The notes beneath the pieces are model-generated. The model was not told the DNA's origin, did not search any database, and saw only the letters and a list, made by a program, of their open reading frames with translations. Below, piece by piece: positions 7,046 through 39,046 of a stretch of 64,000 nt of DNA; the stretch's first letter is position 1; each line of letters begins with the position of its first letter. Source of the DNA: Isoetes taiwanensis (Eukaryota > Streptophyta > Lycopodiopsida > Isoetales > Isoetaceae). The stretch spans positions 19,390,386 to 19,454,385 of the forward strand of contig JAJEKV010000003.1 in NCBI GenBank assembly GCA_021234155.1. Direction: 5' to 3'. A program made the position numbers and the translations under genes.

Positions 7046-7159
7046 TTGTTGGACTTCCTTGGATGCACAATGGGAGGGGTTTCTTTTTAGCTTGGGTTCT
7101 CCTCCTCAAATTTTGAGAAGTACTCGGGATATCTCTCCTCTTCTTCTTCCTTTATAGTT

Positions 7160-13473: not shown

Positions 13474-15066
13474 TGTTGGCCGGGTCAACCTACCCCAAGC
13501 CCGACAGAGTTCTTAGGCAATGGATGACAAAATAATAATACGAATGACAGCAAAAATATAATTCCGTTAATTACTTACGCCAACACCACCACAACTAGGC
13601 TCATAACTTCCGTTATACCCCTTAAGCCTAGCCGCACCGCTTCCTTTTACTCCTTGCTTAATATATATATATTTTTTTTTTATTATATAATATTAACAAT
13701 TTTATACTGTGGACATATATTTGTATCACAATTATCAATAATATATATTAACCTTGGTTGTCATGCTCATGCCCATTAATGCATTCGAATTCCTTAATCA
13801 CCCATGTTAACCCCTTTTTACTCTTATTTTTAGACAACAATATCCATTAGCTTTTAGTTAGGTTATTATTGAACAAAAATAAAAAAACACAAGGCAAGAA
13901 ATACCTGTTAGGGCAGCGTCCAGCGGCCAGGGCGGCGACCAGCGGCCAGGGCTTCAATCTCCTCCCTGCTTCAATCGATCTCTCTGCTTCAATCGATCCC
14001 TCCTTGCCTTTCTTTTACCTGCAGATATAGCAATGAGCAAGCAAGATGCATGCAGATTTCGGATTGGGGTCTGCTCTTGGATGAGCGTCAGATGGATGAG
14101 CAGGCAATCCCAGGCATATTCAATCCTCTATTTTGGTTTTATCCTTTTCTTAATATTTCAATCACAGATTTTACAGGAACTAATCGCAGATACATCCTCT
14201 TCCTTAACTCCTTTTATTTCCTTACTTCTTACTCTCTTTCCTTCCATACAGGCAAGCGACAGACAGCCCAAGACTCTCTTACAATTCTGACTTTATCTCT
14301 TATTTTAATCCTTCTTGCTTTTACACAGGAAGCAACAGATCAGTACAATCAAGTCTCAATTCAGATTTTTAATTCCGGATTCTTAGTTCCTTCCCTCAAT
14401 CATTACTTCAGGCAGCAACACGATATTCTCAATTCAGATTTTTAATTCCATTCTTAGTACTTCCATTTATTTCTTATCAAAGCGGATCACCATTCTCACA
14501 GATACAGAGTAGGATGCTTGAAATTCAAAAGAGATTTTTAGCAAGCCTATCTGATCTTACACAGCATCATTAATTCTTTTCTCACACATCATTATCTTAT
14601 TAACTTAGAAATAACCTCAAGCAGCATACTGGAGGGACCAAATTAGCGCAGAACAGATAAGATTACACATTAGCATCAGCTCAAGGCAAAAATTCGATTC
14701 AGGCCAAAGGTAAAATTCGAATTCATTCGTCAATGTACTTATACACAACTGAACAGATCTGAGCCCTTGAGACAAATCAATCTGGAGCACCCAAGTGTTA
14801 AATAACTAATCCTAAACAACCATGGAGATGTTGACACCTCATCAATCCAAAAATATGGTCTCCTCCAATCAAACTGCTTTGTGCTTTCTCCTTACCATTA
14901 AAATTTGAATTTCTAATGGTCTTCAATAATATAAGCATCAAAATCTTCAAAATAACCTTGTAACTATGCACTTTGGTCGATTTTGAGCCCATACGTCTTC
15001 ATTGCAGCTTCTTTTCACACTGTTTCACTCAAAAATCAAAATTTCTGTTGTGTTGACCGCTCCACA
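13474..15066 (-). repeat. LTR (5' LTR of the Athila-like element)
   Basis: 1593 bp, partner of 1741-3334, followed by the target duplication CTCTT at 15067-15071. In the element's own orientation it would hold the promoter; the U3/R/U5 limits cannot be set by eye. ORFs inside are shared with the other LTR and have no protein-like features. Confidence 0.95.
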
Positions 15067-18203: not shown

Positions 18204-19881
18204 TGTGACGTCCCCTACTCATATACGGTGCACCCACCGTATACAAACAGGAGTTCATCCCCCATACCAGCTTCACGCTGATACAGGGCCCTCCACAATC
18301 ACTGCACCCGTAACGAGTCCAAGTGGGAAGAGTGAAGGGGTCATTTTACCCCGTCTCCCTCAGGGCCTACCTAGCTGCGGAAGCGTAAACATACATGTCA
18401 GTATACAACATAAACACATATCCACCCCGAAGGGTGGGGCATCAACATCTGCATAGATAACGATCAGCATCATACATAGGGGTCCTACCCAAGGCTCAGA
18501 CTCGAAGGGATGACTGACGGCTTGGGTCTCCAGAGTTCATTGCAGACAGAATTCATGGCAATGGATTTGGCTGGCATAAGAACATGGCATTGGGTTGTCC
18601 ACTCCATCCGCCCCTCCTGTGCACACTTTGCAGAGTAGGCTGAAAAGTGTTGGGACCTGACTGTAGCCCGTCGGATGCGTAGCCAAAGGGGCTACATCCT
18701 GGGTTGTATCTCCCCAGTTCCGATGGGGCAGGTAGGGATCTCTCCCTCCAGAGATCTACATGCTGACTCAAGGAGACTAGAGGGCCACTGCCCTTACTCG
18801 ACTTGAACCCACTGGAGAGTGACGCATCACTCCACGGGTGTCGAGCCTATGCCTTGCCCACACTCAGTGGCAAGCCATTAGGCCTAGTCCCAATGATCCC
18901 CGGTAGACATTACACGCCAGAGGGATCGTTCAAGAGTCAGAACACGAACCTCTTTATAAGCCAGTCTGGCCCCTTCACCCACAACCAGGTGTGGCTCTTG
19001 TACACAGGCCGAATCTATAGTGTGCTAGAGAGGCTAATCTAGGAGCATCTACTACCAAGCTTTAGGTCTCTACCCCCCTTCCCAATACAAGGAGCTCATA
19101 GAGATACATCATCCATATACATCACAGAAGAACTAAAGAACTAGATCTAATCTATATCATAGAGTTAGGTTCTTTAGTTAGAGTCTGGTATCTAGAGATC
19201 TAGAGGGCTGCTATGGGCAATTTAATAGGCTAAACCTACTGATTTGATGACTAGAAGATGGTTAAAGGCTATTAAATTGACGAAATACCTGATCCTTGAG
19301 TTCCTCCTCCTGACCTGAGCTCAACCATCCTGCTAAACTGCTCGAATCAAGGGAAACTAATGGGGCAATTCGCTCAGACAGAGTCTGGGAGGCGGTTTTG
19401 ACCCCTGGGGCAGCCAAAACAGAGCTCTAAAACCCTAGAAACGAAAAATGGGCAAGTTAGGGTTTCCCTCCTTAAATAGACAAGGGGGTTGGCTAGGGTT
19501 TCCAATTATCCCCTTTTGGCATGTGGGATAATTGGGAATGGGCCCACTTGCCTTTAATGGCTAGGTGGCAAAATGTACCCACATGGAAAGGTGTGCACAT
19601 TAATGAATATGCACATTGGTAAATGTGCACATTAATTGCACACTTGGGTATGGCCCACTTGGCATAAAGTGTCCACATGGGAAAATATGCACCTAGATAA
19701 ATGTGCACATGGTTAAATGTGCATATTAATAAATGCACATTCCTTGCAAGTTGCCCCCTAGGGGCTACCCGCCTGGCTACACGTTGGCGTACACGTCAGT
19801 CGGGGTGGCGGTAATGCAGCGTGGCGGGCAAAGATCAAGATATCGTCTTGGGACCAGATATCTTTGTCTTTGAACGCCACG
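18204..19881 (-). repeat. LTR copy A of the chromovirus (solo-like)
   Basis: 1678 bp, the same length as copy C (29662-31339). Begins TGTGACGTCCCC. It is preceded by GATCC (18199-18203) and followed by CATCC and the LINE continuation, so it sits in the LINE exactly as a solo LTR would. ORFs within it (for example 18803-19042) recur in copy C and are not genes. The right-hand part has repeats built on TGTGCACATTAAT / AAATGTGCACAT. Confidence 0.92.
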
Positions 19882-19886
19882 CATCC

Positions 19887-21509
19887 CATAGATAGATGTC
19901 TCGCGGGTTAATGTCTTTGGTCCATAAGTTTGCTCTCAATATTTCAGAACTTTGCCCATTGCGTGAACGACAATTTCAGACCCTCAAGCATTGTTTTTTT
20001 CTCTGCGACCAAGTCCGACCAGTTTGGTCGTGGTTGCTGTCTCTTTTTCATGTGGCCTTGACTAGCCAGCATGTGTTTTTTGCTATCTATCCCTGGGGGA
20101 TTCACCTTTGATCAGCGTATAACCCATGAGAGTTCAACGGAGGAGTGTTTTTTAGACCATTTGCGTACATATGCTTAGGGGTTAGGGGTGGTTTTAGGCA
20201 CTAATTTAGAGCAATATCTATGTACATAGGGGTCAAATTGCCTTTTAAAATTGTGTATACAATGGGGATTTTTTGCTACCCTACGAATGCAGATGCCATA
20301 CCCCCCTTATGTATAAGTGCATTCCCCAGGTATCTATCCCTCCACTTGGAATAGGTGGCAGTAGCAAGCTTTTCGTTTAGCGTCAGGTTGGTTGGTGTGG
20401 CCTATCTGGAAAAGGCGGCGATGGTGTATCTTCAAGGGCTTAGCAATTATTGCTAACAAGTTCTTCGCAAGGCACAAGATAGATTCATAAAGGCGTACCT
20501 ATCTCACAGCTTGCTCATGAGAAGAGACGCTTGATTTTTGAGGAATTTTTGGGTATATCATCTCTTGCATAGGTGGGTTGCTCCATTTAGTGGATTATTT
20601 TTGTCTACTGAGATTTTATTCCTGCCTCTGGAATTATACGTGTACTTTCTTGGGATATTGAACAAAGTTTGACGTCCTTCAAAAAAAAGGAGGGGAGGGA
20701 TTGAAAGAGATGTAATAACTATATCATTTCTTGCATTACAGTGAAGTTTCATGTTCTCTGATGCCTCTCTGGAGAATGAACTCTAAAGAAAGTAATAAAT
20801 GAGAGGGTTAAAACTTAAGCTATCAGTGCACAATTCCCAAGAGAGCTTTCATAGCCCTAAATTTTGGACTTGCAAGGGGTTCTGTCATGCCATCTGTTAG
20901 CTGGCTACCAGTAGGACATAGTGCGAGTTGGTGTATTGAGGGAAGTGGAACTTGTAGATCTTGAAAGGGGCCAGTGCATAGCTTAAGATCCAGCTTTGCT
21001 TGTGCTTAGACTAACTCCAACTTGCACAAATGAATGCAAACCTAATAATGAAGATACGAACATAGCTCAACACGACGGACAAATGACTATAAGAGGAAAA
21101 AACGTGCAAAATAAAAAGATTTATAGCACAACCAGCCATTAAATTTTGCCGTCACCAATAAAAAATTGACAATGTTTGATAACAATTTACAACAACCATC
21201 TTACTGAAATAGTTTAGGGTTTAACCAATCTTTGCAATTATTCAATAGAAAACTTGATCTAGCACGATGAGTAAAATAAGAATGGTGTTGTATTAAGCAC
21301 ATGGACATGGAGATCCAAGATAAGCTAATGACGCAATTGCATACCTTTTCCTCATAAAGATAATCTTATACTATGTTCTTGTACTTTGAACAACCTAGAA
21401 TAAGGAGCATGCCATAATCCAAGCTTTAAAAATTTATGAGGTTCGTTGCTACTGACATACATACATGCATGGAAAACAAAATGGGAAAATTCAAGCTTTA
21501 ATAATCCAC
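19887..21509 (+). pseudogene. LINE tail, copy 1 (zf-RVT domain and 3' end)
   Basis: It continues the LINE broken at 18203. The zf-RVT zinc-binding segment reads HKFALNISELCPLRERQ..CFFLCDQ, followed by VRPVWSWLLSLFH. The second cysteine of CPLC is changed to Arg here (CPLR), while copy 2 keeps CPLC. The 3' part ends at a sharp junction with LTR sequence at 21510. Copy 2 (31345-32969) is nearly identical over about 1.62 kb. Confidence 0.85.
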
Positions 21510-21955
21510 GGGGCAGCCAAAACAGAGCTCTAAAACCCTAGAAACGAAAAATGAGCAAGTTAGGGTTTCCCTCCTTAAATAGACAAGGGGGTTGGCTAGG
21601 GTTTCCAATTATCCCCTTTTGGCATGTGGGATAATTGGGAATGGGCCCACTTGCCTTTAATGGCTAGGTGGCAAAATGTGCCCACATGGAAAGGTGTGCA
21701 CATTAATGAATATGCACATTGGTCACTTGGGTATGGCCCACTTGGCATAAAGTGTCCACATGGGAAAATATGCACCTAGATAAATGTGCACATGGTTAAA
21801 TGTGCACATTAATAAATGCACATTCCTTGCAAGTTGCCCCCTAGGGCTACTCGCCTAGCTACACGTTGACGTACACGTCAGTCGGGGTGGCGTGTACGCG
21901 TGACGGGGCAGTACAGTATACGTCCTGGTACCGTATACTGTGCTGGAACGTCACA
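21510..21955 (-). repeat. LTR copy B of the chromovirus (3' LTR, truncated)
   Basis: Matches only the right-hand 446 bp of LTR copies A and C (from CAGCCAAAACAGAGC on), with a small internal deletion near 21722. It ends AACGTCACA followed by the polypurine tract. The left junction with the LINE tail has a shared GGGG (21510-21513). Confidence 0.9.
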
Positions 21956-22831: not shown

Positions 22832-24313
22832 TTAATCTACACGAATCGACATGCCTGAGCCGATTTCTTCGGAGATGATCTTGCCATCCCATTGCTCCAT
22901 GAACTGTGGGTACTGCTTTAATAGATCCTTCTTGAGTACCCATGTCGCATCTTCCACTGGCAAGTGTTTCCACTTGACTAAGTATTGGAGGAACTCTGAT
23001 CTCCTTGTTTTCTTGAAAGCTTTATCAAGAATTAATTCTGGAACTATTTCCAGCTGCTCCTCCGTCATTTCCAACAATGTTGGAGTGTCCAAGACTTCGT
23101 CTGGATTTGGAGTGTGTTTCTTCAACAAACTCACGTGGAAGACCATATGAATCTTTAGGTGTGCTGGCAAGTCTAGCTTGTAGGATTGATTGCCTACTTT
23201 CTGGACTATTCTGAAAGGTCCAGCCCACCTTGGAGCAAGCTTCTTGCAATTCCCGATCCTGAGCTTCGCCTGCTTTACCTTGATCTTTAACCAAACATGG
23301 TCTTCAACTTGGAATTCTCTAACTGTTCGATGCTTGTCGGTGATGCTCTTTTGTCGACTCCTTGCCGCTAGGAGATATCCTCGAACTTCTTCCATGAGCT
23401 GCTGCATGTCGGCCAACATCTGCTGCGAAACTTCTACTTTTGACACGGGGTTGTGCCAAGTTTCTGGAGTTAGGCATTGATAGCCGTAATTGATCATAAA
23501 CGGCGACATTTGGGACGATTCCTGCTTGGTGCTATTGTATGCAAACTCCACCAAGTGAATAAATTCTTCCCACATACCTTGCTTATTCCAGACATAATTT
23601 CGTAGCATGTCCTCCAAAATCCTGTTGGTCCGCTCCGTTTGGCAATCCGTCTGAGGATGATACGCCGTGCTCATTGATAGCTTCGTCTGAATGGTCGCAA
23701 AGAGGTCTTGCCAAAAGGCACTCATAAACTTCGGATCCCTGTCGGAGATAATCTCCCTTGGCATGCCATGAAGCCTGAAAATCTCTTTGGTGAAGAGCTT
23801 TGCTGTATCCATAGCCGTATCTGTGGTCCTGCAAGGCACAAAATGTGCCATCTTCGACAACTTGTCGACCACTACCATCAAAGCATCCTTCCCTCTTACT
23901 GTCCTTGGAAGTCCTGTGATGAAATCCATGCTGATCACCTCCCACTTAGCGTTTGGCACCGCTAATGGCTCTAATGCCCCTGGAATTCGAAGCTGCTCCG
24001 CCTTTGTCTGCTGACATAGCTGACATTCCCTGATGTAGCGAGCTACCTGCTTCTTCATTCCTGGCCAATAATAGCTGCTGCGCACTTTGAAATATGTTTT
24101 CATGAATCCCGCATGGCCAGCTATTGGACTATTGTGCGTGTCATGGAGGATCAATTTCCTTACCCCTGATGATTCGGGTACGCACAACTTATTCTTATGG
24201 TATAACAGGTTGCCTTCCTTCTTATAATGTTTAAAGGCTTCCCGTTCTTTATCTATTCTAGCCTCTCTAGAGAGACTCGCCCATACTTCCCTGAAATCCA
24301 CATCTGTGGGCAA
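22832..24313 (-). CDS. Chromovirus integrase with chromodomain
   Basis: 493 codons, continuous with the RT/RNase H frame upstream except for a single TAG at 24317-24319. Order of domains: HHCC zinc region (HDTHNSPIAGHAGF..CQLCQQ, residues ~75-125); DDE catalytic core with D in SMDFITGLP, D in ISDRDPKF and E in QTERTNR; GPY/F module (RWAGPFRIV..LPAHLKIHMVFHVSLLKKH); C-terminal chromodomain (ILDKAFKKTRRSEFLQYLVKWKHLPVEDATWV, ~425-465). Chromoviral chromodomains steer insertion to chromatin carrying methylated histone H3. HPQTDCQTERTN has Cys where Gly is usual. The frame is open, so this part could be functional if read through the stop. Confidence 0.9.
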   Translation of the reverse strand: MPTDVDFREVWASLSREARIDKEREAFKHYKKEGNLLYHKNKLCVPESSGVRKLILHDTHNSPIAGHAGFMKTYFKVRSSYYWPGMKKQVARYIRECQLCQQTKAEQLRIPGALEPLAVPNAKWEVISMDFITGLPRTVRGKDALMVVVDKLSKMAHFVPCRTTDTAMDTAKLFTKEIFRLHGMPREIISDRDPKFMSAFWQDLFATIQTKLSMSTAYHPQTDCQTERTNRILEDMLRNYVWNKQGMWEEFIHLVEFAYNSTKQESSQMSPFMINYGYQCLTPETWHNPVSKVEVSQQMLADMQQLMEEVRGYLLAARSRQKSITDKHRTVREFQVEDHVWLKIKVKQAKLRIGNCKKLAPRWAGPFRIVQKVGNQSYKLDLPAHLKIHMVFHVSLLKKHTPNPDEVLDTPTLLEMTEEQLEIVPELILDKAFKKTRRSEFLQYLVKWKHLPVEDATWVLKKDLLKQYPQFMEQWDGKIISEEIGSGMSIRVD

Positions 24314-24316
24314 GGA

Positions 24317-25486
24317 CTATTCAATCTTCTTACCAAAGTCGCTGGAGAGCGTCGAAATTGCATTGCAATGCACTCTAGTTGTCAGGGGATGCCTTGAAAG
24401 CGCATCTGCTACCAGATTGAGCTTCCCTGGCTTGTAGACTATATCAAAGTCATACTCTTCAAGAAACTCCATCCACCTTCTCTGCCTCAGGTTGAGGTGT
24501 GGTTGCGTGAATACATACTGGAGGTTTTGATGATCTGTATCCAATTGGAACTTCCTTCCCAAAAGGTAATGCCTCCAAATTCTTAATGCCCTGACAACCG
24601 CAAGCAATTCCTGATCATGCATGGGGTAGCGCGTTTCGGCGTCGTTCATCTTCCTGGAATCGTACGCTACCACACGCTCTTCTTGCATAAGCACTGCACC
24701 TGTAGCTATCTTACTCGCATCTGTGGCTACAAGCTTATCTTTCCCTGGGTCCGGCAGGGTTAGGACTGGGGCGGTTGTTAAAGCTTCCTTCAACAATTCA
24801 AACCCCGCTTGGGCTTTCTTGTGCCAATGCTCTGCCCAATCTTTCACCTTCTTCGCCCTCGTCAAGTCTGTTAACGGGGCCGCTATCTTGGCAAAGTTCT
24901 TCACAAACTTTCTGTAGTACCCTGCTAGCCCGAGAAAACTTCTGACCTCATGCACATTCTTCGGTGCCGGCCACTGAATCACTGCTTCAATCTTGGCAGG
25001 ATCCGTCGAAATTCCTTCTGCTGATATCACATGCCCTAGGTATTCCACCCTCTCCGTTGCGAAGTGACACTTTGACAACTTGGCGTACAACTGGTGCCTC
25101 TTCAACTTCTCCAGCACTCCCCTTAAGTGTTGTACGTGTTCTTCAAGGAATCTGCTATACACCAAACTGTCGTCAAAGAATACAATCACAAAGGTGTCTA
25201 AGAACTCCCTGAAGATGTCGTTCACGAGCCTCATGAACGTTGCTGGGGCATTCGATAAGCCGAAAGGCATTACCGTGAACTCATAGTGCCCATACCTGGT
25301 CCTGAAAGCCGTCTTATGGATATCTTCTTCCTTTATCTGGATCTGATGATAACCTGACCTTAAGTCGATTTTGGAGAAGACCTTTGCACCTTGGAGCTGA
25401 TCCATCAAGTCATCTGATCTGGGGAGCGCATACTTGTTCTTAATGGTGTGCTTATTCAACTGCCTATAGTCTATGCACATCAATCT
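24317..25486 (-). pseudogene. Chromovirus RT and RNase H, missing RT start and ended by a stop
   Basis: 388 codons. RT begins abruptly at [10 protein letters not shown]; the fingers region and everything upstream (gag, protease) are absent. [16 protein letters not shown] and the catalytic FFDD box follow (residues ~75-110), then the thumb ([17 protein letters not shown]) and RNase H ([14 protein letters not shown]...DHQNLQYV...[10 protein letters not shown]). The frame ends in TAG at 24317-24319, and the integrase continues in the same frame, so one base change separates the two. The junction with the foreign DNA lies at about 25487-25501, at GACTCTTGATCCCGG. Confidence 0.9.
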
Positions 25487-25504
25487 CCGGGATCAAGAGT
25501 CTAA

Positions 25505-27031
25505 CTAATCTTGAAATCGCCGGTAAGATGGGTTGTCCTCAAGGAACTTCTTAACTTGGGCCGTTCCTACTGAATGACCCAAGTTCCCGAAGACGTTTGC
25601 TGACGAGCCGCCCTGCAAGGCTCTCGCCAGCTCTTCCACCCTGCGGTCGGATGTGCAGGCCGTGGTCACCGCCAATCTCGCCTGCCGTTGATGGGGTATG
25701 GCAAAGTCGAAGAGGTCAAGTGCCATTGCTCTCTTGACTAGGACAGCATAGTCGACATTTGCCGCTATTCGAGCATGCCTGCCGAAGCCTGAGAGTGCAA
25801 TAAGCATGAACACTCCTTCTTCACCCCGGGGGCTGAACTTGCGGTGTACCACCGCTATTCTCCCATCCAGCAGTAGGGGCAGGTAGTACCTCAGCGACCT
25901 GTCGTTGTGTGTCGCAGATGATTCCCCGCTTGCTTGGCCCCCAGCTCTGTGTCGTCCCGCGTAGTCGTCGACCTCTATCTCCGTCAGCTCTCGGTAGTCT
26001 TCAATTGTGGAGTCGACTCGCCTGAGGCCGATTCCTGCTCCTCTTGCTGGAGGTGGTGTCGAGGGCCTCGGCATCAGGATGCTGGTGGTATTGCCTCTAA
26101 TCCCCATCCGTTCCTGGATGGCGAGGAACTCTTCTTCCGACGGCAGGTCTCCGGCCTCCATGATCTGTCTTATGCTGCTGTAGGCCTGGATATCAGACGT
26201 CGACTCCCCTGTGTAGGTGTCGGCTTCTCGCACTTGAAGCGGGAAGTCTGAGGCTCCCCGGACGATGAAGTCGTCCATTTCTGGTTGTTGCCGTAGTTGG
26301 TGCAGCAACTCATCAAGTCTGAGCTCCCTCTCCCTGCATTCCGGGAGGTTTTGGATGTCACTGAGGAGTAAATACTCCTCTTCGTTGATGATGATGGGGG
26401 CTAGGCTTGTGATGCCTAGCCCGAGTGGGGGAGCAATTCTGAGGGTCTGCCGGCTCCGCTCCATGTTGGCCAGCTCCTCCTCTGCTTGGCGCCGTTCTTC
26501 GTCTGAGTCGAGCTCCGTGTACTCGTCGTCGTCCGACTCCTCTTCTTCTTCTCTTCCTTCTTGCTCCTGCTGATACTGCAAAAGCATCTGCTCTGCTGCT
26601 TGGGCTGCTATGGGGTCCACCTCCATCGGAGGGATAGAGGTTGCCCCCATTGGATTTTCGGCACGGTGGGATAAGAAAATAGATAGGGCGGCAGTGTAGG
26701 AGAAATATTTGGTCCTGTCAACTGTCAGAACCATGTAGTCTGGCAGTCTCTGCGCCTTGTTAGTCAAATACTTGGCGATGTTGGGGACATCGCCCAAGGC
26801 TGCTTGAAGGGATGGTCGGGGGACAAAGTAGCCTATGCAAGGAGGGAGCTGAACGAGGGAGGGTCCTACCCTAGCTTGGAACTCTGCTAGAACTTGTCTA
26901 TATGCTGGGGTTGCATTCAAAGTGGCTTGGAAATCTATCTCTCTCCCAAAGACTCGGAAGATGTCATTGACATCCGCCTCGGCAGCATGGGCACTGGCGC
27001 TGTACCATCGCCTGAAGTCAGCAGTGGCCAT
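25505..27031 (-). CDS. Captured ORF 1, unknown 508-aa protein
   Basis: Chosen start is the ATG at 27031 (MATADFRRWYSAS), because its leader aligns with the leader of the ORF at 28998; the open frame extends 27 codons further up without an ATG. Not recognised. Visible: a folded-looking N-terminal region (1-150, with DVNDIFRVFGREIDF and RLPDYMVLTVDRTKYFSYTAALS), an acidic linker (EEEEESDDDEYTELDSDEE, ~180-205), a Pro/Gly-rich middle, and a second globular region (~395-490, YYLPLLLDGRIAVVHRKFSP..GVFMLIALSGFGRHARI). No zinc knuckle, protease or membrane segment. It sits where gag-protease should be, but reads unlike Gag. G+C content is clearly higher than in the flanking LTR DNA. TATA box at 27144-27153. 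Confidence 0.7.
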   Translation of the reverse strand: MATADFRRWYSASAHAAEADVNDIFRVFGREIDFQATLNATPAYRQVLAEFQARVGPSLVQLPPCIGYFVPRPSLQAALGDVPNIAKYLTNKAQRLPDYMVLTVDRTKYFSYTAALSIFLSHRAENPMGATSIPPMEVDPIAAQAAEQMLLQYQQEQEGREEEEESDDDEYTELDSDEERRQAEEELANMERSRQTLRIAPPLGLGITSLAPIIINEEEYLLLSDIQNLPECRERELRLDELLHQLRQQPEMDDFIVRGASDFPLQVREADTYTGESTSDIQAYSSIRQIMEAGDLPSEEEFLAIQERMGIRGNTTSILMPRPSTPPPARGAGIGLRRVDSTIEDYRELTEIEVDDYAGRHRAGGQASGESSATHNDRSLRYYLPLLLDGRIAVVHRKFSPRGEEGVFMLIALSGFGRHARIAANVDYAVLVKRAMALDLFDFAIPHQRQARLAVTTACTSDRRVEELARALQGGSSANVFGNLGHSVGTAQVKKFLEDNPSYRRFQD

Positions 27032-27143: not shown

Positions 27144-27153
27144 CCTATTTATA
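27144..27153 (-). promoter_or_regulatory. TATA box of captured ORF 1
   Basis: Minus strand TATAAATAGG, 113 bases before the ATG at 27031. The following leader (C-run, ..TACCCT, AAGT.TGCTCTCC..TGCCAAGGC.ATCTTC) is homologous to the leader of captured ORF 2, which makes a real promoter likely. Confidence 0.6.
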
Positions 27154-27343: not shown

Positions 27344-27410
27344 GTCTCACACGTTGCGCCCAGACCGATAATGAAAAGTTCATTTTCTGCCCTGGCGCGA
27401 CGTGTGAGAC
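27344..27410. repeat. 67-nt palindrome, copy 1 (type a)
   Basis: Left arm GTCTCACACGTTGCGCC, right arm GGCGCGACGTGTGAGAC; the centre AATGAAAAGTTCATT is itself partly self-complementary. 190 bases upstream of the TATA box of captured ORF 1. Confidence 0.85.
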
Positions 27411-27542: not shown

Positions 27543-27609
27543 GTCTCACACGTTGCGCCCAGCCCGAAAATGAGATTCTCATTTTCTGTCCTGGCGCGAC
27601 GTGTGAGAC
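27543..27609. repeat. 67-nt palindrome, copy 2 (type b)
   Basis: Same arms as copy 1; the centre GAAAATGAGATTCTCATTTTC is a near-perfect inner palindrome. It begins 199 bases from copy 1. Confidence 0.85.
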
Positions 27610-27970
27610 ATCGTCTCAATTTTGCTCAAAAAGTCCAATTTGATCAAAACAAAAGCTAGAATTCAATATCTTAACCTAGTTAAGCAAGATTGAACACATT
27701 ATTTACACAAAAATTCTTTATATTAACAAAATTTTTCATTATTTACAAAAAGGTTCAAGGGCGTTCTCCCTTGATGTGTCTAGCTAAGTACATATCCTGC
27801 CTCATGAGCGTGACCCTCTTCGCGTGAACTGTGCAGGCCATGGAATCTTCAAAATGCTGCACTATTTTCGCCTCTGCTGCCTCCTGTAGGCACAACAGCA
27901 TTTCATTGGTCACTCACATGTCCGTGTTGTACTCCTGCATGACTTCTCGGACCAAGCGTTGAAACGGTGC
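27610..27970. other. Spacer between the two captured units
   Basis: AT-rich to about 27760, then G+C-rich. In the minus orientation it follows the stop of captured ORF 2 and probably holds its 3' end. The phrase GACTCTTGATTCCCCGG at its start (27971-27987) recurs at the end of unit 1 (25487-25501). No separate gene. Confidence 0.4.
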
Positions 27971-27978
27971 CCGGGGAA

Positions 27979-28998
27979 TCAAGAGTCCGTAACTTCGCTG
28001 GAAGTGCCGGATTTCCTTGAGGGCCCTCTGCTCCTCTTGGTCCGCTTCTTTCCTGGTGCTCTGGGAGGCTTGGGCTTGGGTGGCGGCGGCTTCAGGGTCT
28101 GGCTTTTTGTTGGGCGTCCGCCTTCAATCGTTCTCACCCTGTGCTCCTGGTAGTAAGCGTTGTACGCCTCCCACTTCGCCATGTAGGCATTGTGCTCCTT
28201 AATCTTCTTCTGATAGACCTTTACGGGGTCTATCACGTACGCCTCCCGTTGTGGCCGTGGGGCTTTGGCTCTATCCCACGTCGGGAATGGTGGGGGCTTC
28301 GATGCTTGCCCGGGCTGCTCCTGCTCAGGTGCCACCTGCTCGGGTACTTCCTTCTCCACGACCGGGGGTTTTGAAGAGCTTGCCCCCTCAGTGTTGGGGA
28401 CGTAATCTTCGTCCGAGTCGTCGGTAGAAGGCGGGGTCTGCTCGCCTGATGGCTCGTTAATGACGGGACCCATTGCTCGCTTACCAACCTTTACAACTTT
28501 CCTCTTGCCCGCCTTAATGCCTTTGGCCTTCCTCTTCTTCGGCTCACCGGCTGTGGTAGGCTCGTCCTCCCGTCTCTTCATCCTCCTCTCTCGGCGGCGC
28601 TCTCTGGCTTCATATTTGCTGATGAACGCCGCGAGGTCTGCTTCTGCAGCAGGGCTAAGCCTCGGCTGCCGCTGCTCCTCTCTCTCTTCCTCCTCCTGCA
28701 GACGGGCCCAAGCCTCGAGTTGCTCCTCGACGGTCGGCTGCCCTATCTGCTCCCGTTCCTCCCTGTTCCTCCTGTCTTCCTCGGCGATCTCTTCGAGAAT
28801 CTGCTGCATAATATCCGGCCGCTCCTCGCCTATGACCTCAGTCTGGTCGCTCCGGTCCAATTCTGCCTCCTCGCTGGAAGAAGATTCGCCTTGCCGGAAA
28901 AGGCGTTCTTGGAGTATCCTCTGAATGAGGGCAGGGTCGCTGGCGCTGGATGATTCGCCTCAGCGGGGCTTCCTAGCGGTCTGTTTTGTCCGGGCCAT
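27979..28998 (-). pseudogene. Captured ORF 2: nuclear-type protein with histone H3 tail mimic, stop at codon 13
   Basis: From the ATG at 28998 the protein starts MARTKQTARKPR. Residues 2-10 equal mature histone H3 residues 1-9 exactly; PR then matches H3 16-17 if STGGKA is skipped. Codon 13 is TGA (28960-28962), after which the same frame runs on to 27979 (339 codons in all). The rest is not histone: Glu/Arg-rich coiled-coil-like stretch (~60-145), a strongly basic patch EPKKRKAKGIKAGKRK (NLS-like, ~160-185), an acidic Ser region, a Pro-rich part, and a basic tail ([15 protein letters not shown]). One base change would open the frame, so the stop may be recent, or this copy dead. Function unknown; a chromatin-binding or chromatin-decoy role is an inference. 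Confidence 0.7.
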
Positions 28999-29098: not shown

Positions 29099-29110
29099 TC
29101 TATTTATAAG
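29099..29110 (-). promoter_or_regulatory. TATA box of captured ORF 2
   Basis: Minus strand CTTATAAATAGA, 101 bases before the ATG at 28998, followed by the leader shared with captured ORF 1. Confidence 0.6.
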
Positions 29111-29185: not shown

Positions 29186-29252
29186 GTCTCACACGTTGCG
29201 CCCAGACCGATAATGAGAAGTTCATTTTCTGTCCTGGCGCGACGTGTGAGAC
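29186..29252. repeat. 67-nt palindrome, copy 3 (type a)
   Basis: Same arms and centre as copy 1 with one or two changes; 76 bases upstream of the TATA box of captured ORF 2. Confidence 0.85.
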
Positions 29253-29387: not shown

Positions 29388-29454
29388 GTCTCACACGTTG
29401 CGCTCAGCCCGAAAATGAGATTCTCATTATCTGTCCTGGCGCGACGTGTGAGAC
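29388..29454. repeat. 67-nt palindrome, copy 4 (type b)
   Basis: Same as copy 2 with two changes; begins 202 bases from copy 3, repeating the a-b spacing (199) seen upstream of captured ORF 1. Confidence 0.85.
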
Positions 29455-29648: not shown

Positions 29649-29660
29649 GCTCTGATACCA
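29649..29660 (-). promoter_or_regulatory. Primer-binding site, initiator tRNA-Met type
   Basis: Minus strand TGGTATCAGAGC starts one base after the end of the 5' LTR (29662). This is the standard plant LTR-retrotransposon PBS for the initiator methionine tRNA. Confidence 0.93.
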
Positions 29661-29661
29661 C

Positions 29662-31339
29662 TGTGACGTCCCCTACTCATATACGGTGCACCCACCGTAT
29701 ACAAACAGGAGTTCATCCCCCATACCAGCTCCACGCTGATACAGGGCCCTCCACAATCACTGCACCCGTAACGAGTCCCAGTGGGAAGAGTGAAGGGGTC
29801 ATTTTACCCCGTCTCCCTCAGGGCCTACCTAGCTGCGGAAGCGTAAACATACATGTCAGTATACAACATAAACACATATCCACCCCGAAGGGTGGGGCAT
29901 CAACATCTGCATAGACAACGATCAGCATCATACATAGGGGTCCTACCCAAGGCTCAGACTCGAAGGGATGACTGACGGCTTGGGTCTCCAGAGTTCATTG
30001 CAGACAGAATTCATGGCAATGGATTTGGCTGGCATAAGAACATGGCATTGGGTTGTCCACTCCATCCGCCCCTCCTGTGCACACTTTGCAGAGTAGGCTG
30101 AAAAGTGTTGGGACTGGATCAGAGCTCCGCCGGATCGTAGCCAAAGGGGCTACATCCTGGGTTGTATCTCCCCAGTTCCGATGGGGCAGGTAGGGATCTC
30201 TCCCTCCAGAGATCTACATGCTGACTCAAGGAGACTAGAGGGCCACTGCCCTTACTCGACTTGAACCCACTGGAGAGTGACGCATCACTCCACGGGTGTC
30301 GAGCCTATGCCTTGCCCACACTCAGTGGCAAGCCATTAGGCCTAGTCCCAATGATCCCCGGTAGACATTACACGCCAGAGGGATTGTTCAAGAGTCAGAA
30401 CACGAACCTCTTTATAAGCCAGTCTGGCCCCTTCACCCACAACCAGGTGTGGCTCTTGTACACAGGCCGAATCTATAGTGTGCTAGAGAGGCTAATCTAG
30501 GAGCATCTACTACCAAGCTTTAGGTCTCTACCCCCCTTCCCAATACAAGGAGCTCATAGAGATACATCATCCATATACATCACAGAAGAACTAAAGAACT
30601 AGATCTAATCTATATCATAGAGTTAGGTTCTTTAGTTAGAGTCTGGTATCTAGAGATCTAGAGGGCTGCTATGGGCAATTTAATAGGCTAAACCTACTGA
30701 TTTAATGACTAGAAGATGGTTAAAGGCTATTAAATTGACGAAATACCTGATCCTTGAGTTCCTCCTCCTGACCTGAGCTCAACCATCCTGCTAAACTGCT
30801 CGAATCAAGGGAAACTAATGGGGCAATTCGCTCAGACAGAGTCTGGGAGGCGGTTTTGACCCCTGGGGCAGCCAAAACAGAGCTCTAAAACCCTAGAAAC
30901 GAAAAATGGGCAAGTTAGGGTTTCCCTCCTTAAATAGACAAGGGGGTTGGCTAGGGTTTCCAATTATCCCCTTTTGGCATGTGGGATAATTGGGAATGGG
31001 CTCACTTGCCTTTAATGGCTAGGTGGCAAAATGTACCCACATGGAAAGGTGTGCACATTAATGAATATGCACATTGGTAAATGTGCACATTAATTGCACA
31101 ATTGGGTATGGCCCACTTGGCATAAAGTGTCCACATGGGAAAATATGCACCTAGATAAATGTGCACATGGTTAAATGTGCATATTAATAAATGCACATTC
31201 CTTGCAAGTTGCCCCCTAGGGGCTACCCTGGCTGGCTACGTTGGCGCACACGTCGGTCGAGGGTGGTGGTGTGTACGTGCGTGGAGGGCAAGATAAAGAT
31301 ATCGCCCCGGGACCAGATATCGTCTTTGGAACGTCACTG
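29662..31339 (-). repeat. LTR copy C of the chromovirus (5' LTR)
   Basis: 1678 bp, full length, near-identical to copy A. It has TGTGACG at the left and ..ACGTCAC at the right, then the target duplication GATCC (31340-31344). Differences from copy A are concentrated near 30113-30135 and in the last 130 bp. Confidence 0.93.
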
Positions 31340-31344
31340 GATCC

Positions 31345-32969
31345 TGCATAGATGTCTGCAGGTTAATGTGCTGGTCCATAAGTTTGCTCTCAATATTTCA
31401 GAACTTTGCCCATTGTGTGAACGACAATTTCAGACCCTCAAGCATTGTTTTTTTCTCTGCGACCAAGTCCGACCAGTTTGGTCGTGGTTGCTGTCTCTTT
31501 TTCATGTGGCCTTGACTAGCCAGCATGTGTTTTTTGCTATCTATCCCTGGGGGATTCACCTTTGATCAGCGTATAACCCATGAGAGTTCAACGGAGGAGT
31601 GTTTTTTAGACCATTTGCGTACATATGCTTAGGGGTTAGGGGTGGTTTTAGGCACTAATTTAGAGCAATATCTATGTACATAGGGGTCAAATTGCCTTTT
31701 AAAATTGTGTATACAATGGGGATTTTTTGCTACCCTACGAATGCAGATGCCATACCCCCCTTATGTATAAGTGCATTCCCCAGGTATCTATCCCTCCACT
31801 TGGAATAAATGGCAGTAGCAAGCTTTTCGTTTAGCGTCAGGTTGGTTGGTGTGGCCTATCTGGAAAAGGCGGCGATGGTGTATCTTCAAGGGCTTAGCAA
31901 TTATTGCTAACAAGTTCTTCGCAAGGCACAAGATAGATTCATAAAGGCGTACCTATCTCACAGCTTGCTCATGAGAAGAGACGCTTGATTTTTGAGGAAT
32001 TTTTGGGTATATCATCTCTTGCATAGGCGGGTTGCTCCATTTAGTGGATTATTTTTGTCTACTGAGATTTTATTCCTGCCTCTGGAATTATACGTGTACT
32101 TTCTTGGGATATTGAACAAAGTTTGACATCCTTCAAAAAAAAGGAGGGGAGGGATTGAAAGAGATGTAATAACTATATCATTTCTTGCATTACAGTGAAG
32201 TTTCATGTTCTCTGATGCCTCTCTGGAGAATGAACTCTAAAGAAAGTAAGAAATGAGAGGGTTAAAACTTAAGCTATCAGTGCACAGTTCCCAAGAGAGC
32301 TTTCATAGCCCTAAATTTTGGACTTGCAAGGGGTTCTGTCATGCCATCTGTTAGCTGGCTACCAGTAGGACATAGTGCGAGTTGGTGTATTGAGGGAAGT
32401 GGAACTTGTAGATCTTGAAAGGGGCGGTGCATAGCTTAAGATCCGGCTTTGCTTGTGCTTAGACTAACTCCAACTTGCACAAATGAATGCAAACCTAATA
32501 ATGAAGATACTGAACATAGCTCAACACACGACGGACAAATGACTATAAGAGGAAAAAAACGTGCAAAATAAAAAAAGATTTATAGCACAACCAGCCATTA
32601 AATTTTGTCGTCACCACCAATAAAAATTGACAATGTTTGATAACAATTTACAACAACCATCTTACTGAAATAGTTTAGGGTTTAACCAATCTTTGCAATT
32701 ATTCAATAGAAAACTTGATCTAGCACGATGAGTAAAATAAGAATGGTGTTGTATTAAGCACATGGACATGGAGATCCAAGATAAGCTAATGACGCAATTG
32801 CATACCTTTTCCTCATAAAGATAATCTTATACTATGTTCTTGTACTTCAACCTAGAATAAGGAGCATGCCATAATCCAAGCTTTAAAAATTTATGAGGTT
32901 CGTTGCTACTGACATACATACATGCATGGAAAACAAAATGGGAAAATTCAAGCTTTAATAATCCACGGG
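31345..32969 (+). pseudogene. LINE tail, copy 2 (zf-RVT domain and 3' end)
   Basis: Directly continues the LINE frame from 18203 after removal of the element and one GATCC: WWQIL then HRCLQVNVLVHKFAL, the zf-RVT motif CPLCERQFQTLKHCFFLCDQ and VRPVWSWLL. The Cys pair is intact here. The shared sequence with copy 1 stops at CCACGGGG (32964-32970). Confidence 0.85.
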
Positions 32970-32970
32970 G

Positions 32971-33614: not shown

Positions 33615-34080
33615 CTGAGTCACGTCTATGCGACGTTTGACGACGTGACACGTGACGTCGCGACGTATCGCCGCCGCGGACACGCCGCGATGCGACGCGG
33701 CGCCGCGATGCGACGCCGGCAGACGCGTGACACATACGCGTGACATAGACGTCGCGTCAAGGCGGCGTGACACGTGGAATATACACGCGGAATATACACG
33801 CGGAACATCAACAAAATCCCGCTGCGTCGTAGAAGCCCGCGGTATACGCCGCATGCGGCGTGACGGACACGGAATATACACGTGGAATATACACGTGGAA
33901 TGTCAAAAAAATCCACGCGTGCCGTAGAAGCCACGTGTATACGTCGCATGCGACGTGACACGTGGAATAAACACGTGGAATATACACGTGGAATGTCAAA
34001 AAAATCCACGCGGGCCGTTAAAGCCACGTGTATACGTCGCATGCGACGTCACGCAAAAACAATTATGAAAACCCACGTGT
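33615..34080. repeat. CACTA left subterminal repeats
   Basis: CpG-rich repeats. About three tandem units of ~95 bp from 33775 to 34055 carry the phrases ACACGTGGAATATACACG, a run of A then TCCACGCG, AGCCACGTGTATACG and the 16-nt palindrome ACGTCGCATGCGACGT (33941-33956, 34034-34049). All ORFs in this stretch on both strands are by-products of the repeats. Confidence 0.85.
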
Positions 34081-34185
34081 GATTAGAAAAACGTGAAGGG
34101 AAAAAAAATAAAAAAAAATAAAAAAAATAAAAAAAATGTTTGGCTTAGATAATTATTATAATATGATGTACAAGGAGCAAAAGGG

Positions 34186-34372
34186 CATTTATATTTTTAT
34201 ATTTATATTTTTATATAATCACAAAAGTATTTTTATATTTATATTTCTAAATAATCACAAAAGTATTTTTATATTTATATTTTTAAATAATCACAAAAGT
34301 ATTTTTATATTTATATTTTTTAATAATCACAAAAGTATTTTTATATTTATATTTTTAAATAATCACAAAAGA
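34186..34372. repeat. 36-bp tandem repeat, about five copies
   Basis: AT-rich unit with the phrase AATCACAAAAGTATTTTTAT repeated five times at 36-bp spacing, with one or two changes per unit. A plus-strand frame through it encodes a repetitive peptide and is not a gene. Confidence 0.85.
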
Positions 34373-35029
34373 CTCGTTAAGGGGAGTATCCACCCTTTTA
34401 GCCTAGAGCTAAGCTCGGTCAGATTCAGTGGAGTAGTCATCTGATTCGGGGTTGGGATTGGATGGCCCTCCATCAAAGTTTGCAGATCCCTCGCCGACCC
34501 CGCGCCCCCTGTCCTGGTCTAGGCCTTCATTCAGATCCGCCACTGCTTCCTATAAAAACCAAAAGAATATGGCATTAATGTAGTTCATAGAATTATAATA
34601 ATTTTCTACAACGCACCCCCGCATTCCCGTGAAGTGGGATAGTTCCCTCTTCGTATAACTCTTGATACAGATAAACAGCTCCACGTTCCGTGGCTATTTT
34701 TACGTGCTTCTTGTTAGGGGGAAACCCGTATAGATATTAGCTAATGACATTTAAAGTTCTTATTAAAATTAATGTGAACTAATATAGCTCTTACGAATCT
34801 ATTGTAAAACCCTTTTCGACCGCTGGAGCCCAAATGAGACGGCTTTCGTTTACTTTTAGTTGCTTTGTCGGTCTGAGCTCTATGTTTCTGTTCTGGATCC
34901 TTTGCACGTTCGAATGCAATCTGATTGCAAGGCACACAACATTATCACAAGTTAAAGTGAACGAATGGCAAAAAAAGATAAGAAATACCTTGATATCTTC
35001 CTTGTGGAGATTAAGTGGTTTAGGGACTT

Positions 35030-35395
35030 TTGACCAATTCCTTGTGGAGCATCGTTGGGTTACCAGAAAAAGAATCTGAAAATACTAAAGAAGAAGTTGA
35101 GGAATTTGTGAGAGCTAAACTGCACATACCAGCAAATGGAATCCTAGATGCTTATAGAATTGGTAAACAGAGTGAGAAGGATCGCACCGTAGTGGTTAAG
35201 TTTGCAGATATGGAATCCAAAAGAAGAGTAATGCAGAAAAGATCTTCTCTTAAAGAGGAGCGCATATGGCTGAATAATGACTTGACTGCTTCACAATTCC
35301 AACAGCAGAGGCAAGAGTTACAAAAAATGAAGGAGGCCAAACAAAATGGAAAAATGGTTACCTGGAAGAATGGGAAAGTCATAATACAGGAATAG
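35030..35395 (+). pseudogene. LINE ORF1 C-terminal remnant
   Basis: 121 codons. Protein-like from GLPEKESENTKEEVEEFVRAKL, then RIGKQSEKDRTVVVKFADMESKRRVM, which resembles the RNA-binding middle of LINE ORF1 proteins. A Gln/Lys-rich end follows. The upstream half is missing, so the first codons (MTNSLWS) come from a broken frame. Confidence 0.6.
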
Positions 35396-35424
35396 GGAAG
35401 GGATGTCAGACCATCAGGTTTTGT

Positions 35425-38400
35425 TTGTGGAACATTAATGGTAGGGCGGACGATGTCGCTTTATTACATGATGTTCTCAAATCATGGGATGTGGTCTTCC
35501 TGGTAGAAACACATGAACACGAAGAATATGGACTTCCAGAAATAAACGGATTTATGCTACTGCACTCTGTATGGAATGTAAAAGGATGGAGAAGGAAAGG
35601 TTTTGGAGGAATTGCCTGCTATATTAGAAAGCATCTTTTGGATGCGGTTAAGTTGATTAAGAAGGACTCTTCTAAACAGTACATCTGGCTGGAGTGCATG
35701 GGAAAAACAAGAAAAATATATGTTGCAGGCTGCTACTTCCCACCGAGAGAATCACCAACATATGCAGCAGCAGATATGGATAAGGATGATCCTTTCCATC
35801 ATTTAGAGCAGGATGCTTTGGACCTAAGTGCACAGGGAGATCTTATTCTGATGGGAGACTTTAATAGTAGAATTGCCAATAGGCAAGCATATGTTGCTAA
35901 TGACTCGGGAGATCCTATTTGGATGGAACAAATGAGCAATGAAGAATTGGAAGCAGCTGGATGGGCTAGAGATACGGAGGACCGCTATGGTGAGGTGCAA
36001 CCACAAGGCAACCACTTGCTCAACATGTGTGGAGGTTTGGAGTTAATTATTATTAATGGCATTAAGAAATTCCCAGCTTCAAAAAAATGCACTTCTATTG
36101 GTGCTAAAGGGGATGGCGCTAGTGTAGTAGATCTGTTGTTGACAGGGACGCATATGATAGATTATATATCTGATTATTTTGTGGATGACTCACTGGCCAC
36201 ATCTGATCATTACCCGATAGTGATGCACATGCAGGTGATGTGTAGGCTAATGCCAATGCCCAATACTGCGGAGAATAATGTCTCCATGCGCATGCAAGCA
36301 GGTAAGAAAGAGATATATATGCAGCTTTGTGAGGCACAGGCCAGTAGCATTAAATGGACAAGTCAAGCAGATAGTGATAATGATATGCTGACTAACATGT
36401 TACTAGATGCGGTAACTTCATGTTTTATGTCACAACGGAAAGCAAAAGGATTGCCATGCAATGGATGGTATGACCAAGAATGTAAGACAAAGCTGGCTGA
36501 ATTTAAAATGGCAGCAAAAGAAGATAAATGTAAGCGCAGAATGGAATATCGTAAGTTAGTAAGGAGGAAAAAGAGGGCGTATCTGCATAAGAAGCAAGAA
36601 ATATTAGTTGGTACCTTACTAGATGAACCAAGGCGATTCTGGGCACGATTGAAATCAAAAGGACATCAACCCAATATGCTGGAAGTGGAAGATTTAATGC
36701 AACAGGTACGTGGTCTTTATCACATTGCTGGTTTAAACGATGAGATGCATAGGGAAGGAGAAATTCTTGTTTTTACAGAGGATGATGTGAAGAATGGGAT
36801 AAGTAAATTATCATGCGGAAGGGCAACAGATGCATTTGGGTTAGTAGCGGAGATGATTAAATGGGCTGGTCCTACTGTGGCTAAAGTTGTAACCAATATG
36901 ATGAATGACGCACTATTGCATGGATTCCCATCGGCATGGCAAATAAACAGAGTAGTACCGGTACATAAAGCAGGTGATACTAGGGATCCTAATAACTATA
37001 GGATGATTATGATTAGCGGGGTAAAAGCATGTTAAGGTGTACCACTTTTGGAACCTGCAAAAGTACATACACTAGGTACTTTAGAACTGGGTACTTTCTC
37101 ATTTTTCTTTTCATTAAAACTAGTACAAAAGTTCAAAATAAAAGTCAAGGACGTGTTAATATTCAAAGTTAGGATAAATATAATGCTATCAAAGACCAAA
37201 ATATATCTAAAAGTTCTATAATGTACCTTTTATTGACATATTACACAGGTACCCAGTACCTAGTCCTGGGTACCTTTTTAGGTACTTTTTTGGTCACTAA
37301 ATAATACTTTTTAAGGGACACCCTAACATGCTTTTACCCAGCGGTCTTTTCTCCAAATTGTTTGCAACAATACTGGAGCGCAAAATAAATACATGGGCAG
37401 AGGAGAATGATTGTAGAGCAATGGGACAAGCAGGATTCAGGCCCAAAAAATGCACGGTGGATCACCTAGTCACAATTAGAGCAGTAATGGATTCCGTGAA
37501 GAATACCAAAAAACCCCTCTTTGCTCTTTTTGTGGACCTTACAAAAGCGTTTGATATGCTGCGGAGAAGAAATATATGGGATTATATGAAATGCATTGGG
37601 GTACCACAGGCACTACGTAATGCAGTATCTGTCTTGTATGAGAAGGTAGTAGTGCAGCTCTCCTTTCCGCTGCGTAAGGAATGTGATGAGGATGTAATGA
37701 GCAACATAGGGGTGAAGCAGGGATGTCCACTTTCTCCTACGTTGTTCGGCATATATATAGATCAGCTTGAAGCTTGGCTAAAAACACGCGGAGGTGAAGG
37801 TACCATAATGGCAGGGTATGTGATCACATTGCTGCTTTATGCTGATGATATTGTTATATTTGCCAGAAATGCTGCTGACATGCAAAAGCATTTAGACGCT
37901 CTTGCCGCTTTCTGCAAAGCTACTGAGATGAAAGTTAACCTTAAAAAAACTAAAATCCTGATATTTGGAACTCGAATGCGGGACTTTCATTTTCTCTATG
38001 ATGGTCAGGAGGTGGAGATATCTAGTACATATAAATATTTGGGGCTGATAATTGATCATAATTATACTTGGAATAAGGCTGTTGAGCAAAGGACGGATGG
38101 AGGTACAAAAGCATTATTTGCCATACAAAGAAAATGCAGGAAAGCTGAAATTGTTGATTGGAAGCTTAAAAAGATGTTATATGAGTCCTTAGTGAGATCC
38201 GTGGTGCTTTATGGATGTGAGGCATGGGGGCCGGGACTATCACGAGATATGTGGAAGCGTGTGGAGAAGATACAAAAGAAATTCTTATTAACAGAATTAG
38301 GAGTAAAAATGCAAACTCCCTATCCGATGATGTTGGCGGATTCGGACATGATGCCACTTGAAGCAGAAGCTATATATTGCACATTAAAGTATGTGGCAAA

Positions 38401-39046
38401 GGTCATTGAGATGGAAAATGATAGGCTCCCGAGATTAGCTATGGAACAAAGCAAGGTAAAAGGCTGGTATGCAGACTTACAGAAATGGCTTGGGAAATGG
38501 GGCATGTCAATTGATAGTGTACCCAATGATCAAGCAGTATTACGGGAATGGGTGAAAATTAATGTGCAACACAAAATGTGGAGTAATCCTGGAACAAAGA
38601 TGAGCTTATACAGGAAGGTTGTTAATCCCAATTTATGTGCAGCGCCCCACCTTGCAGGCAAAGTCTCATACAAGAAAAGGCATATGATATGCAGATTAAG
38701 GCTAAGTTCTCATCATTTGGGAATAGAGGTTGGAAGATGGGGGAATCTTCCAAGATACAGACGTACATGCAGAGTATGTGGAGATGATGAGATAGAGGAT
38801 GAGAATCATTTGGTATTACATTGTCCTGCCTACCAGAATCTTAGAGATCTCTATGGTATTCCAGATAATATCTCTTTGCATGATTTCTTTGGAAAACCGG
38901 TCCACACTATTGGAAATTTCTTAACAGATGTGATGAAGATGAGAGAACTATCCATTAAAAATTATAGGCAACTGTTGGACGACTATGAAAAAGAAGAGAG
39001 CGAGCCTAATGATGCCCCACTTGAGGGCATATTAGATGGTATATGA
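35425..39046 (+). pseudogene. LINE ORF2: endonuclease and reverse transcriptase, split by a MITE-like element
   Basis: 35425-37018 encodes the APE-type endonuclease (GDFNSR at ~155; ATSDHYPIV near 270) and the start of RT. 37340-39046 encodes RT (FVDLTKAFD, GVKQGCPLSPTLF, catalytic YADD, YKYLGLIID), a long connector, and a CCHC-type knuckle (CRVCGDDEIEDENHLVLHC). Removing 37019-37339 with one AGCG copy rejoins the frame exactly at the conserved MISGLFSKL region. Apart from that insertion no stop interrupts it, so the LINE is young. Its product nicks target DNA and copies the LINE RNA in place. Confidence 0.88.
37019..37339. mobile_element. 321-bp MITE-like element inside LINE ORF2
   Basis: Ends GGGTAAAAGCATGTTAAGG and, inverted, GGGTAAAAGCATGTTAGGG: about 25 bp of terminal inverted repeat with few mismatches. 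Flanked by AGCG on both sides (37015-37018, 37340-37343). AT-rich centre with GTACC-type repeats; no ORF. The superfamily is not settled; a 4-bp duplication is unusual for plant MITEs. Confidence 0.85.

Follow-up and report, generated by a model that had tools for sequence, protein, structure and literature searches.

Few host proteins are as conserved and as well guarded as the core histones, and short H3-tail-like sequences borne on a parasite's protein are familiar from viral histone mimics such as the ARSK of influenza NS1. The locus considered here raises the question of why a retrotransposon ORF should begin with an exact copy of the H3 tail, and what kind of protein the remainder of that ORF specifies. 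It lies in a 64,000-nucleotide stretch of the Isoetes taiwanensis genome (contig JAJEKV010000003.1), hereafter the window, in whose coordinates all positions are given.

The histone ORF and its element

The ATG and the codons for ARTKQTARKPR are encoded at 28998-28963(-), as an initial annotation had read them, the whole start being MARTKQTARKPR; H3 residues 1-9 are matched exactly at the extreme N-terminus of this frame (ORF1). The stop which that annotation placed at codon 13 is likewise found at 28962-28960, and is absent from all other rows aligned in frame there. Its description of the remaining codons as not histone holds for the stretch 28959-27979 and fails for the gene as a whole, which ends in a complete H3 fold at 28024-27758(-) that had been missed. 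In the window copy the spacer reading frame departs from the histone frame upstream of the fold, and the tail is separated from the fold by the codon-13 stop, the change of frame and one more stop; taken by itself, the window piece 27917-28123 matches Pfam Histone with E=2.3e-11.

For the comparison of copies we used the best 40 of 1526 first-look candidates for the ORF, window copy included; these are the nearest copies, and counts taken from them are lower bounds. The frame runs uninterrupted from Met to the end of the fold, over 415-422 residues, in 11 of the 39 other copies (L057, L063, L067, L068, L078, L079, L081, L082, L088, L090 and L095), ten of which were aligned; an alternative counting rule gives 13 open copies, which include three with altered ends and exclude L063. 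The ORF of L057, the one open copy searched, matches solved histone H3 structures in the PDB (E=1.3e-27) and Pfam Histone (6.3e-28). ORF1 thus read opens with residues 1-9 of the tail, continues with some 310 residues of spacer and closes with an 89-residue H3 fold that aligns without gaps and is identical to host H3 at 51-52 of its 89 positions; by eye, it retains the positions that we take to be C110, H113, R116, T118 and D123 of H3. The full H3 tail (ARTKQTARKSTGGKAPRK..., about 40 residues) is absent from the window family, residues 1-9 alone being retained, and H3 41-46, directly before alpha-N, are missing. No homologue of the spacer was found at E<=1 among 7972 candidates. Among the 120 matches listed of 1162, the search for full-length ORF1 homologues returned sequences covering at most 55% of the query, with a Histone domain by their listing, and in a second search 62 matches among 68 candidates were again histone-domain proteins by listing.

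On its predicted translation, ORF1 is a long histone H3, not a bare tail on a non-histone protein. The latter was the initial proposal, and the tail itself is indeed present; we give it practically no credence because the H3 fold lies within the same ORF, and in this the window-family protein differs from influenza NS1, its tail sitting on a protein with a full H3 fold. The judgement that the match is beyond chance is vindicated, since the gene ends in a histone H3 fold; this, with the conservation of the tail across copies, rules out a coincidental match.

The assignment of the frame to a retrotransposon also stands, ORF1 lying inside an LTR retrotransposon on the minus strand of the window (Table 1). 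The long direct repeats at 29661-32970 and 18203-21513 are 97.7% identical. The LTRs have TG..CA ends and a tRNA primer site, which in 32 of the 40 rows directly follows the LTR end, and pol has the order RT, RNase H, integrase, both features being those expected of Ty3/gypsy chromoviruses. The integrase C-terminus matches Pfam Chromo (E=2.9e-10), and the same chromodomain sequence recurs in four further copies, a fifth having a broken version. The gag zinc knuckle and the aspartic protease, lost in the window copy, are seen in L054, where a single open gag-pol frame of 1618 codons bears zinc knuckle, protease, RT, RNase H, integrase and chromodomain (motifs by eye). Across eight downstream stretches of copies, ORF2 homology is found in seven and window-pol homology in six; in L050 homology stops within the fold. 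The element is, from its predicted domains, a chromovirus with the order H3 ORF, ORF2, gag-pol with chromodomain.

Table 1. Positions of the element's features in the window
Feature	Position	Strand	Remark
5' LTR	29662..32970	-	97.7% identical to 3' LTR; apparently truncated at its 5' end
Primer binding site TGGTATCAGAGC	29649..29660	-	directly after LTR end
Palindrome 1 upstream of histone ORF	29388..29454	.	pair of ~67-nt palindromes
Palindrome 2 upstream of histone ORF	29186..29252	.	
TATAAATA box	29101..29108	-	~110 nt before histone ATG
Met + H3 tail residues 1-9 (MARTKQTARK), then P-R	28969..28998	-	exact in 31/38 rows
Stop at codon 13	28960..28962	-	damage of window copy
Spacer of histone ORF	27979..28959	-	charged, coiled-coil-like and NLS-like by eye
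Histone H3 fold (alpha-N to C-terminus)	27758..28024	-	different frame in window copy; stop at 27916-27914
Palindrome 1 upstream of ORF2	27543..27609	.	
Palindrome 2 upstream of ORF2	27344..27410	.	
TATAAATA box before ORF2	27146..27153	-	
ORF2	25505..27031	-	508 aa; counterparts in both other H3-bearing families (copies read)
Deletion point	25481..25505	-	~2.3 kb (gag, protease, RT start) missing vs other copies
Reverse transcriptase (5' truncated) + RNase H	24317..25492	-	Pfam RVT_1, RT_RNaseH
Integrase with C-terminal chromodomain	22832..24316	-	Pfam Integrase_H2C2, rve; chromodomain 22886-23044
3' LTR	18204..21955	-	starts TGTGACG after purine tract, ends CGTCACA; start by eye

This pol layout is shared with the plant group II chromodomain chromoviruses (RT-RH-INT-chromodomain, with two cage aromatics missing; PMC3350952, PMC6317226), for which the portions of these two reports considered here describe no histone ORF; the same portions record the 5' part of plant elements as a place where extra ORFs are known to occur (eORF-5'F). 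In the window element two of the three cage positions, taken from PMC3350952 and compared by eye, are non-aromatic, and ordinary reading of methylated K9 by the element itself is therefore unlikely; the idea that its chromodomain binds the methylated tail via a normal aromatic cage was set aside as unlikely.

In the window copy, two palindromes and a TATAAATA box stand upstream of ORF1 and again upstream of ORF2, and because each ORF has such a module of its own, separate transcription of the two is suggested. Upstream of ORF1, 38 of 40 rows have one or more of the four palindrome arms and 32 have the full set, and TATAAATA lies 105-113 nt upstream of a located ATG in 35 of 40. In a 279-nt comparison that takes in the palindromes, the two modules of the window copy agree at 76%, and in the leader stretch 27 of 31 nt are alike; the palindrome arms have eight matches in the window and no others. 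These two pairs of near-palindromes, of the form GTCTCACACGT.GCGC..., are possibly binding sites for a regulator of the element or the host.

Conservation and selection across copies

The alignment comprises 40 rows, the window and 39 copies, of which 38 reach the start (L032 and L044 do not). MARTKQTARK is exact in 31 of these 38 and the whole MARTKQTARKPR in 28, although the first ten codons occur in 23 nucleotide versions (30-mers); taken with the 11 of 39 copies open through the fold, this confirms the expectation that other copies would join ARTKQTARK to an open downstream frame. The seven exceptions are the frameshifted L018 and L023 and the single substitutions in L014, L015, L028, L042 and L043. 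A proline follows K9 in all 38 rows. Five rows (L030, L031, L035, L046 and L048) begin with ATGATGG, where a start one Met earlier could leave Ala1 unexposed.

The initial annotation had also called for a dN/dS comparison, and our counts, which are simple pairwise values of pN/pS rather than estimates from a tree-based codon model, point to purifying selection: pN/pS is 0.037 for codons 2-10 as against 0.287 for the rest (36 rows, local frame mask, L018 and L023 left out), and with the same masking and in-frame rows 2 of 318 alignment windows have a lower value than the tail. With the frameshifted rows kept, pS and pN are 0.478 and 0.047 for the tail and 0.310 and 0.096 for the rest. Against strong selection on the tail, 81 of 317 windows had a ratio no higher than that of the tail when every third row was taken, frameshifted ones included, so the result for the tail depends on how frameshifted copies are treated.

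In a longer alignment (40 rows, masked) pN/pS was 0.082 for the tail, 0.268 for the spacer and 0.131 for the fold. Values measured in the same way for other parts of the same elements, from 3 to 8 rows each, are 0.187 for ORF2 (8 rows), 0.119 for gag, 0.046 for protease, 0.160 for RT, 0.138 for RNase H, 0.072 for integrase and 0.074 for the chromodomain. By this comparison tail and fold are retained to about the same degree as proteins which the element requires.

Related families and the origin of the element H3

A genome-wide search with Pfam Histone (PF00125) gave 8705 first-look candidates, of which 150 were scored, 15 at 164-165 bits and 135 at 144-155 bits. Two of the former (L096, L097) are canonical host H3 with the full tail. 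From the latter we picked, for their long open frames, six places (L098-L103), all of which are fusions of 417-459 residues joining a different N-terminal domain to an H3 fold; these constitute a second family. Its folds are identical to host H3 at 73-75 of 89 positions, and the copy L098 matches histone H3 in the PDB with E=1.2e-50. A search with the oak CENH3 P0123 gave 7980 candidates, of which 150 were scored, including host-type H3 and some of the PF00125 places. Seven of these places (L107-L113, some picked for long and some for short open frames) make up the third family, and all of them have a third type of fold, identical to host H3 at 75-78 of 89 positions. Its N-terminal domain was seen in four of the seven (L107, L108, L109 and L113), L110-L112 being shorter, or incomplete in the stretch examined; that of L108 is related to that of family 2 (L108 and L098 share 44% identity across the protein). 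The region IPYPI.HF.E.FLI.LN ... VEQPD is observed fused to H3 in L098-L103, L107-L109 and L113, and Pfam scans of L098 and L100 gave no significant match for this type of N-terminal domain, which we predict to be a new domain of families 2 and 3. The exact tail is specific to the window family; the copies of families 2 and 3 that were read have other N-termini and retain the fold.

The flanks of L098, L101 and L108 show the same neighbours, and at least three chromovirus families accordingly have H3 in the same place. The flank of L098 (L104) has an ORF2 counterpart, gag and protease (Pfam RVP_2, 8.6e-14; zinc-knuckle and gag matches below the curated cut-off), with no RT seen in 7 kb; that of L101 (L105) has an ORF2 counterpart, gag, protease and an RT sharing 79% identity with the window element across 435 residues; and that of L108 (L114) has an ORF2 counterpart, gag, RT, RNase H and integrase pieces, its pol being 71-89% identical to the window element in the longer pieces. 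The comparison shows three families of one chromovirus lineage with predicted genes for H3 upstream of gag-pol, followed by ORF2. The folds of families 2 and 3 have pN/pS of 0.064 (6 copies) and 0.047 (7 copies), values lowered by the choice of copies partly for long open frames. That several element families carry an oversized H3 gene points to elements that supply a chromatin protein of their own.

ORF2 adjoins the H3 ORF in all three families, its counterparts being those in L104, L105 and L114, and the family 2 version shares 20% identity with that of the window family (E=2e-4). It has no Pfam match up to E=0.1, one match at E=0.51 being taken as chance, and no credible match in the PDB (best E=0.034); an AlphaFold model built without an alignment had a mean pLDDT of 35 and was unusable. 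We regard ORF2 as a putative constrained protein and a candidate partner of the element H3.

As to origin, we infer that an ancestral element captured a copy of H3, the fold of which was then retained by selection. Between host H3 and family 3, pS is 0.85-0.95 with pN of about 0.11, which fits an old capture kept by selection; this pS does not date the capture, because two host H3 genes differ from each other at pS 0.78. In trees, families 2 and 3 group with canonical H3 (support 86/87 and 87/86, not strong) and with each other (82/81, not strong). The window family forms a long branch on the CENH3 side in two trees, with weak support (90/87 and 91/85), and a third gives it no placement; a single clade of all element H3s was not rejected (p-AU 0.073 and 0.068). 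The window family can be aligned with family 3 along 157 residues, some of them ahead of the fold, and proline is the last residue in both; these similarities favour one origin.

Possible roles of the element H3

The factor common to the three families is the fold with a large element-specific N-terminal part, and not the tail; on this ground we prefer a role in which that part is displayed. To the proposal that the element H3 enters nucleosomes, displays its element-specific N-terminal part and so alters silencing or aids integration we give about an even chance. The element H3 would pair with host H4 and enter nucleosomes, its N-terminal part would thereby be exposed on chromatin, and the displayed part would change the action of host chromatin enzymes on the element or, alternatively, would offer a landing site to the integration complex of the element. 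In the window family the part of H3 so replaced would be most of 10-46, and in the other two families its free end (1-9). The free ARTKQTARK end of the window family might also be read or modified like H3 K4/K9, and it is possible that it recruits or titrates H3-tail readers and writers; since the copies of families 2 and 3 that were read do not have the exact tail at their N-terminus, one mechanism based on the tail does not account for the whole lineage. Against display stand the 28 of 39 window-family copies that are not open through the fold and the missing H3 41-46 of that family, and at 51-52 of 89 positions identical to host H3 the window-family fold does not assure nucleosome assembly.

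Other readings of the same evidence were weighed. The protein might act unassembled, as a soluble decoy whose partners would be H4, histone chaperones or, for the window family, the proteins that read and write the H3 N-terminus, and so weaken silencing of the element. The exact tail at a free end and its very low pN/pS would suit such a protein, as would a large spacer that is both acidic and basic and the P for S after K9 in 38 of 38 rows, which would abolish the S10 phosphorylation site; we nonetheless consider it unlikely, in that a decoy for tail readers needs no fold and the copies of families 2 and 3 that were read, without the N-terminal tail, have a strongly constrained one. It is distinctly unlikely that the window-family H3 derives from or acts like CENH3, marking element chromatin or steering insertion to centromeres. 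The EIRHFQ and LLIP.APF motifs and an 11-residue stretch do resemble the plant CENH3s P0123 and P0156, unlike host H3, and two trees place the family beside CENH3 with the weak support given above. Yet loop 1 has the length of that of H3, in place of the longer loop with an R-W motif of CENH3, and lacks the CENH3 tryptophan, identity to H3 and to CENH3 is about equal (51/89 and 48/89), the third tree leaves the family unplaced, and the AU test does not reject a common clade for the element H3s (p-AU 0.068). Furthermore, no host CENH3 was recognised in the seven places read of the 150 listed in the P0123 search, all of which hold element-type folds or fragments.

A role in packaging, with the histone coating element cDNA or RNA within the virus-like particle, would make use of a basic protein with a DNA-binding fold from the same element. 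It appears very unlikely, the gene being a separate ORF with its own promoter-like module and not a part of gag, and H3 being normally stable only in company of H4. Transposons commonly capture genes, and the H3 could in principle be a captured fragment without function for the element that is merely copied along, as the open state of just 11 of 39 window-family copies might suggest. The selection results make such a passenger highly improbable: pN/pS of tail and fold is near or below the values for RT and gag, and H3 is found in three families, with the pS and pN between host and family 3 given above.

Returning to display within nucleosomes, its boldest extension is that the retrotransposon lineage builds its own nucleosomes, an H3 fused to element domains and expressed from the element's own promoters replacing host H3 on element chromatin, controlling silencing and marking landing sites. 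We offer this tentatively and hold it to be on balance doubtful; were it true, chromatin identity itself would belong to a selfish element. If the element H3s enter chromatin, they would provide a natural test of replacing the H3 tail by a foreign domain and of a transposon acting on silencing from inside the nucleosome. They would also be candidate partners, encoded by the same element, for the group II chromodomains, whose partner is not identified according to the part of PMC6317226 considered here.

The search for precedents covered the open-licence literature, with subscription papers and preprints outside its scope, and brought up no description of a histone gene in a retrotransposon, nor of a retrotransposon H3 maintained by selection. 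The single comparable case in the portions of that literature considered is a hAT DNA transposon of the wheat-pathogenic fungus Pyrenophora tritici-repentis with a histone H3-like gene, H3L (PMC3538342), which according to its authors matches neither H3 nor CenH3. As in Isoetes, the element carries and multiplies an H3-like gene, with insertions in the tail and an adjoining ORF of unknown function. It differs, as far as that portion of the report goes, in being a fungal DNA transposon with 26 very similar copies, for which the authors consider drift, whereas the Isoetes elements are plant LTR retrotransposons in diverged families with measured purifying selection and, in one family, exact H3 1-9; LTRs, RT and integrase are found in place of the terminal inverted repeats and transposase of a hAT element. 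Histone capture by a transposable element is also described, in the part of the source considered, for Helentron-Cq-32A of Culex, but there the captured H4 and H15 superfamily fragments contain stops, frameshifts and indels and the gene is not kept intact (PMC4067079). Orchid Ty3/gypsy elements carry an ORF for an AlkB m6A demethylase that is active in vitro, identified in a screen of 121 angiosperm genomes and no lycophytes (PMC9289625); as described in the relevant part of that report, these are likewise plant gypsy elements with an extra ORF of host-gene kinship, but it specifies an RNA demethylase and not a histone.

Several further repeats were noted in the window. Tandem repeats of 36 nt (34156-34407) and about 93 nt (33762-34053) adjoin the element. 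A second, different Ty3/gypsy element lies at 4216-8299(-), with RT and RNase H by Pfam and an integrase-like frame by eye, and a LINE-like element at 35024-39046(+) has endonuclease-like and reverse-transcriptase-like frames, also by eye. The frames 2301-2711(+) and 13912-14445(+) have long identical protein stretches in common and represent repeated sequence. Finally, a Transposase_21 (tnp2) frame at 54383-55207(-) (Pfam E=5e-70) is probably the remains of a CACTA-type DNA transposon.
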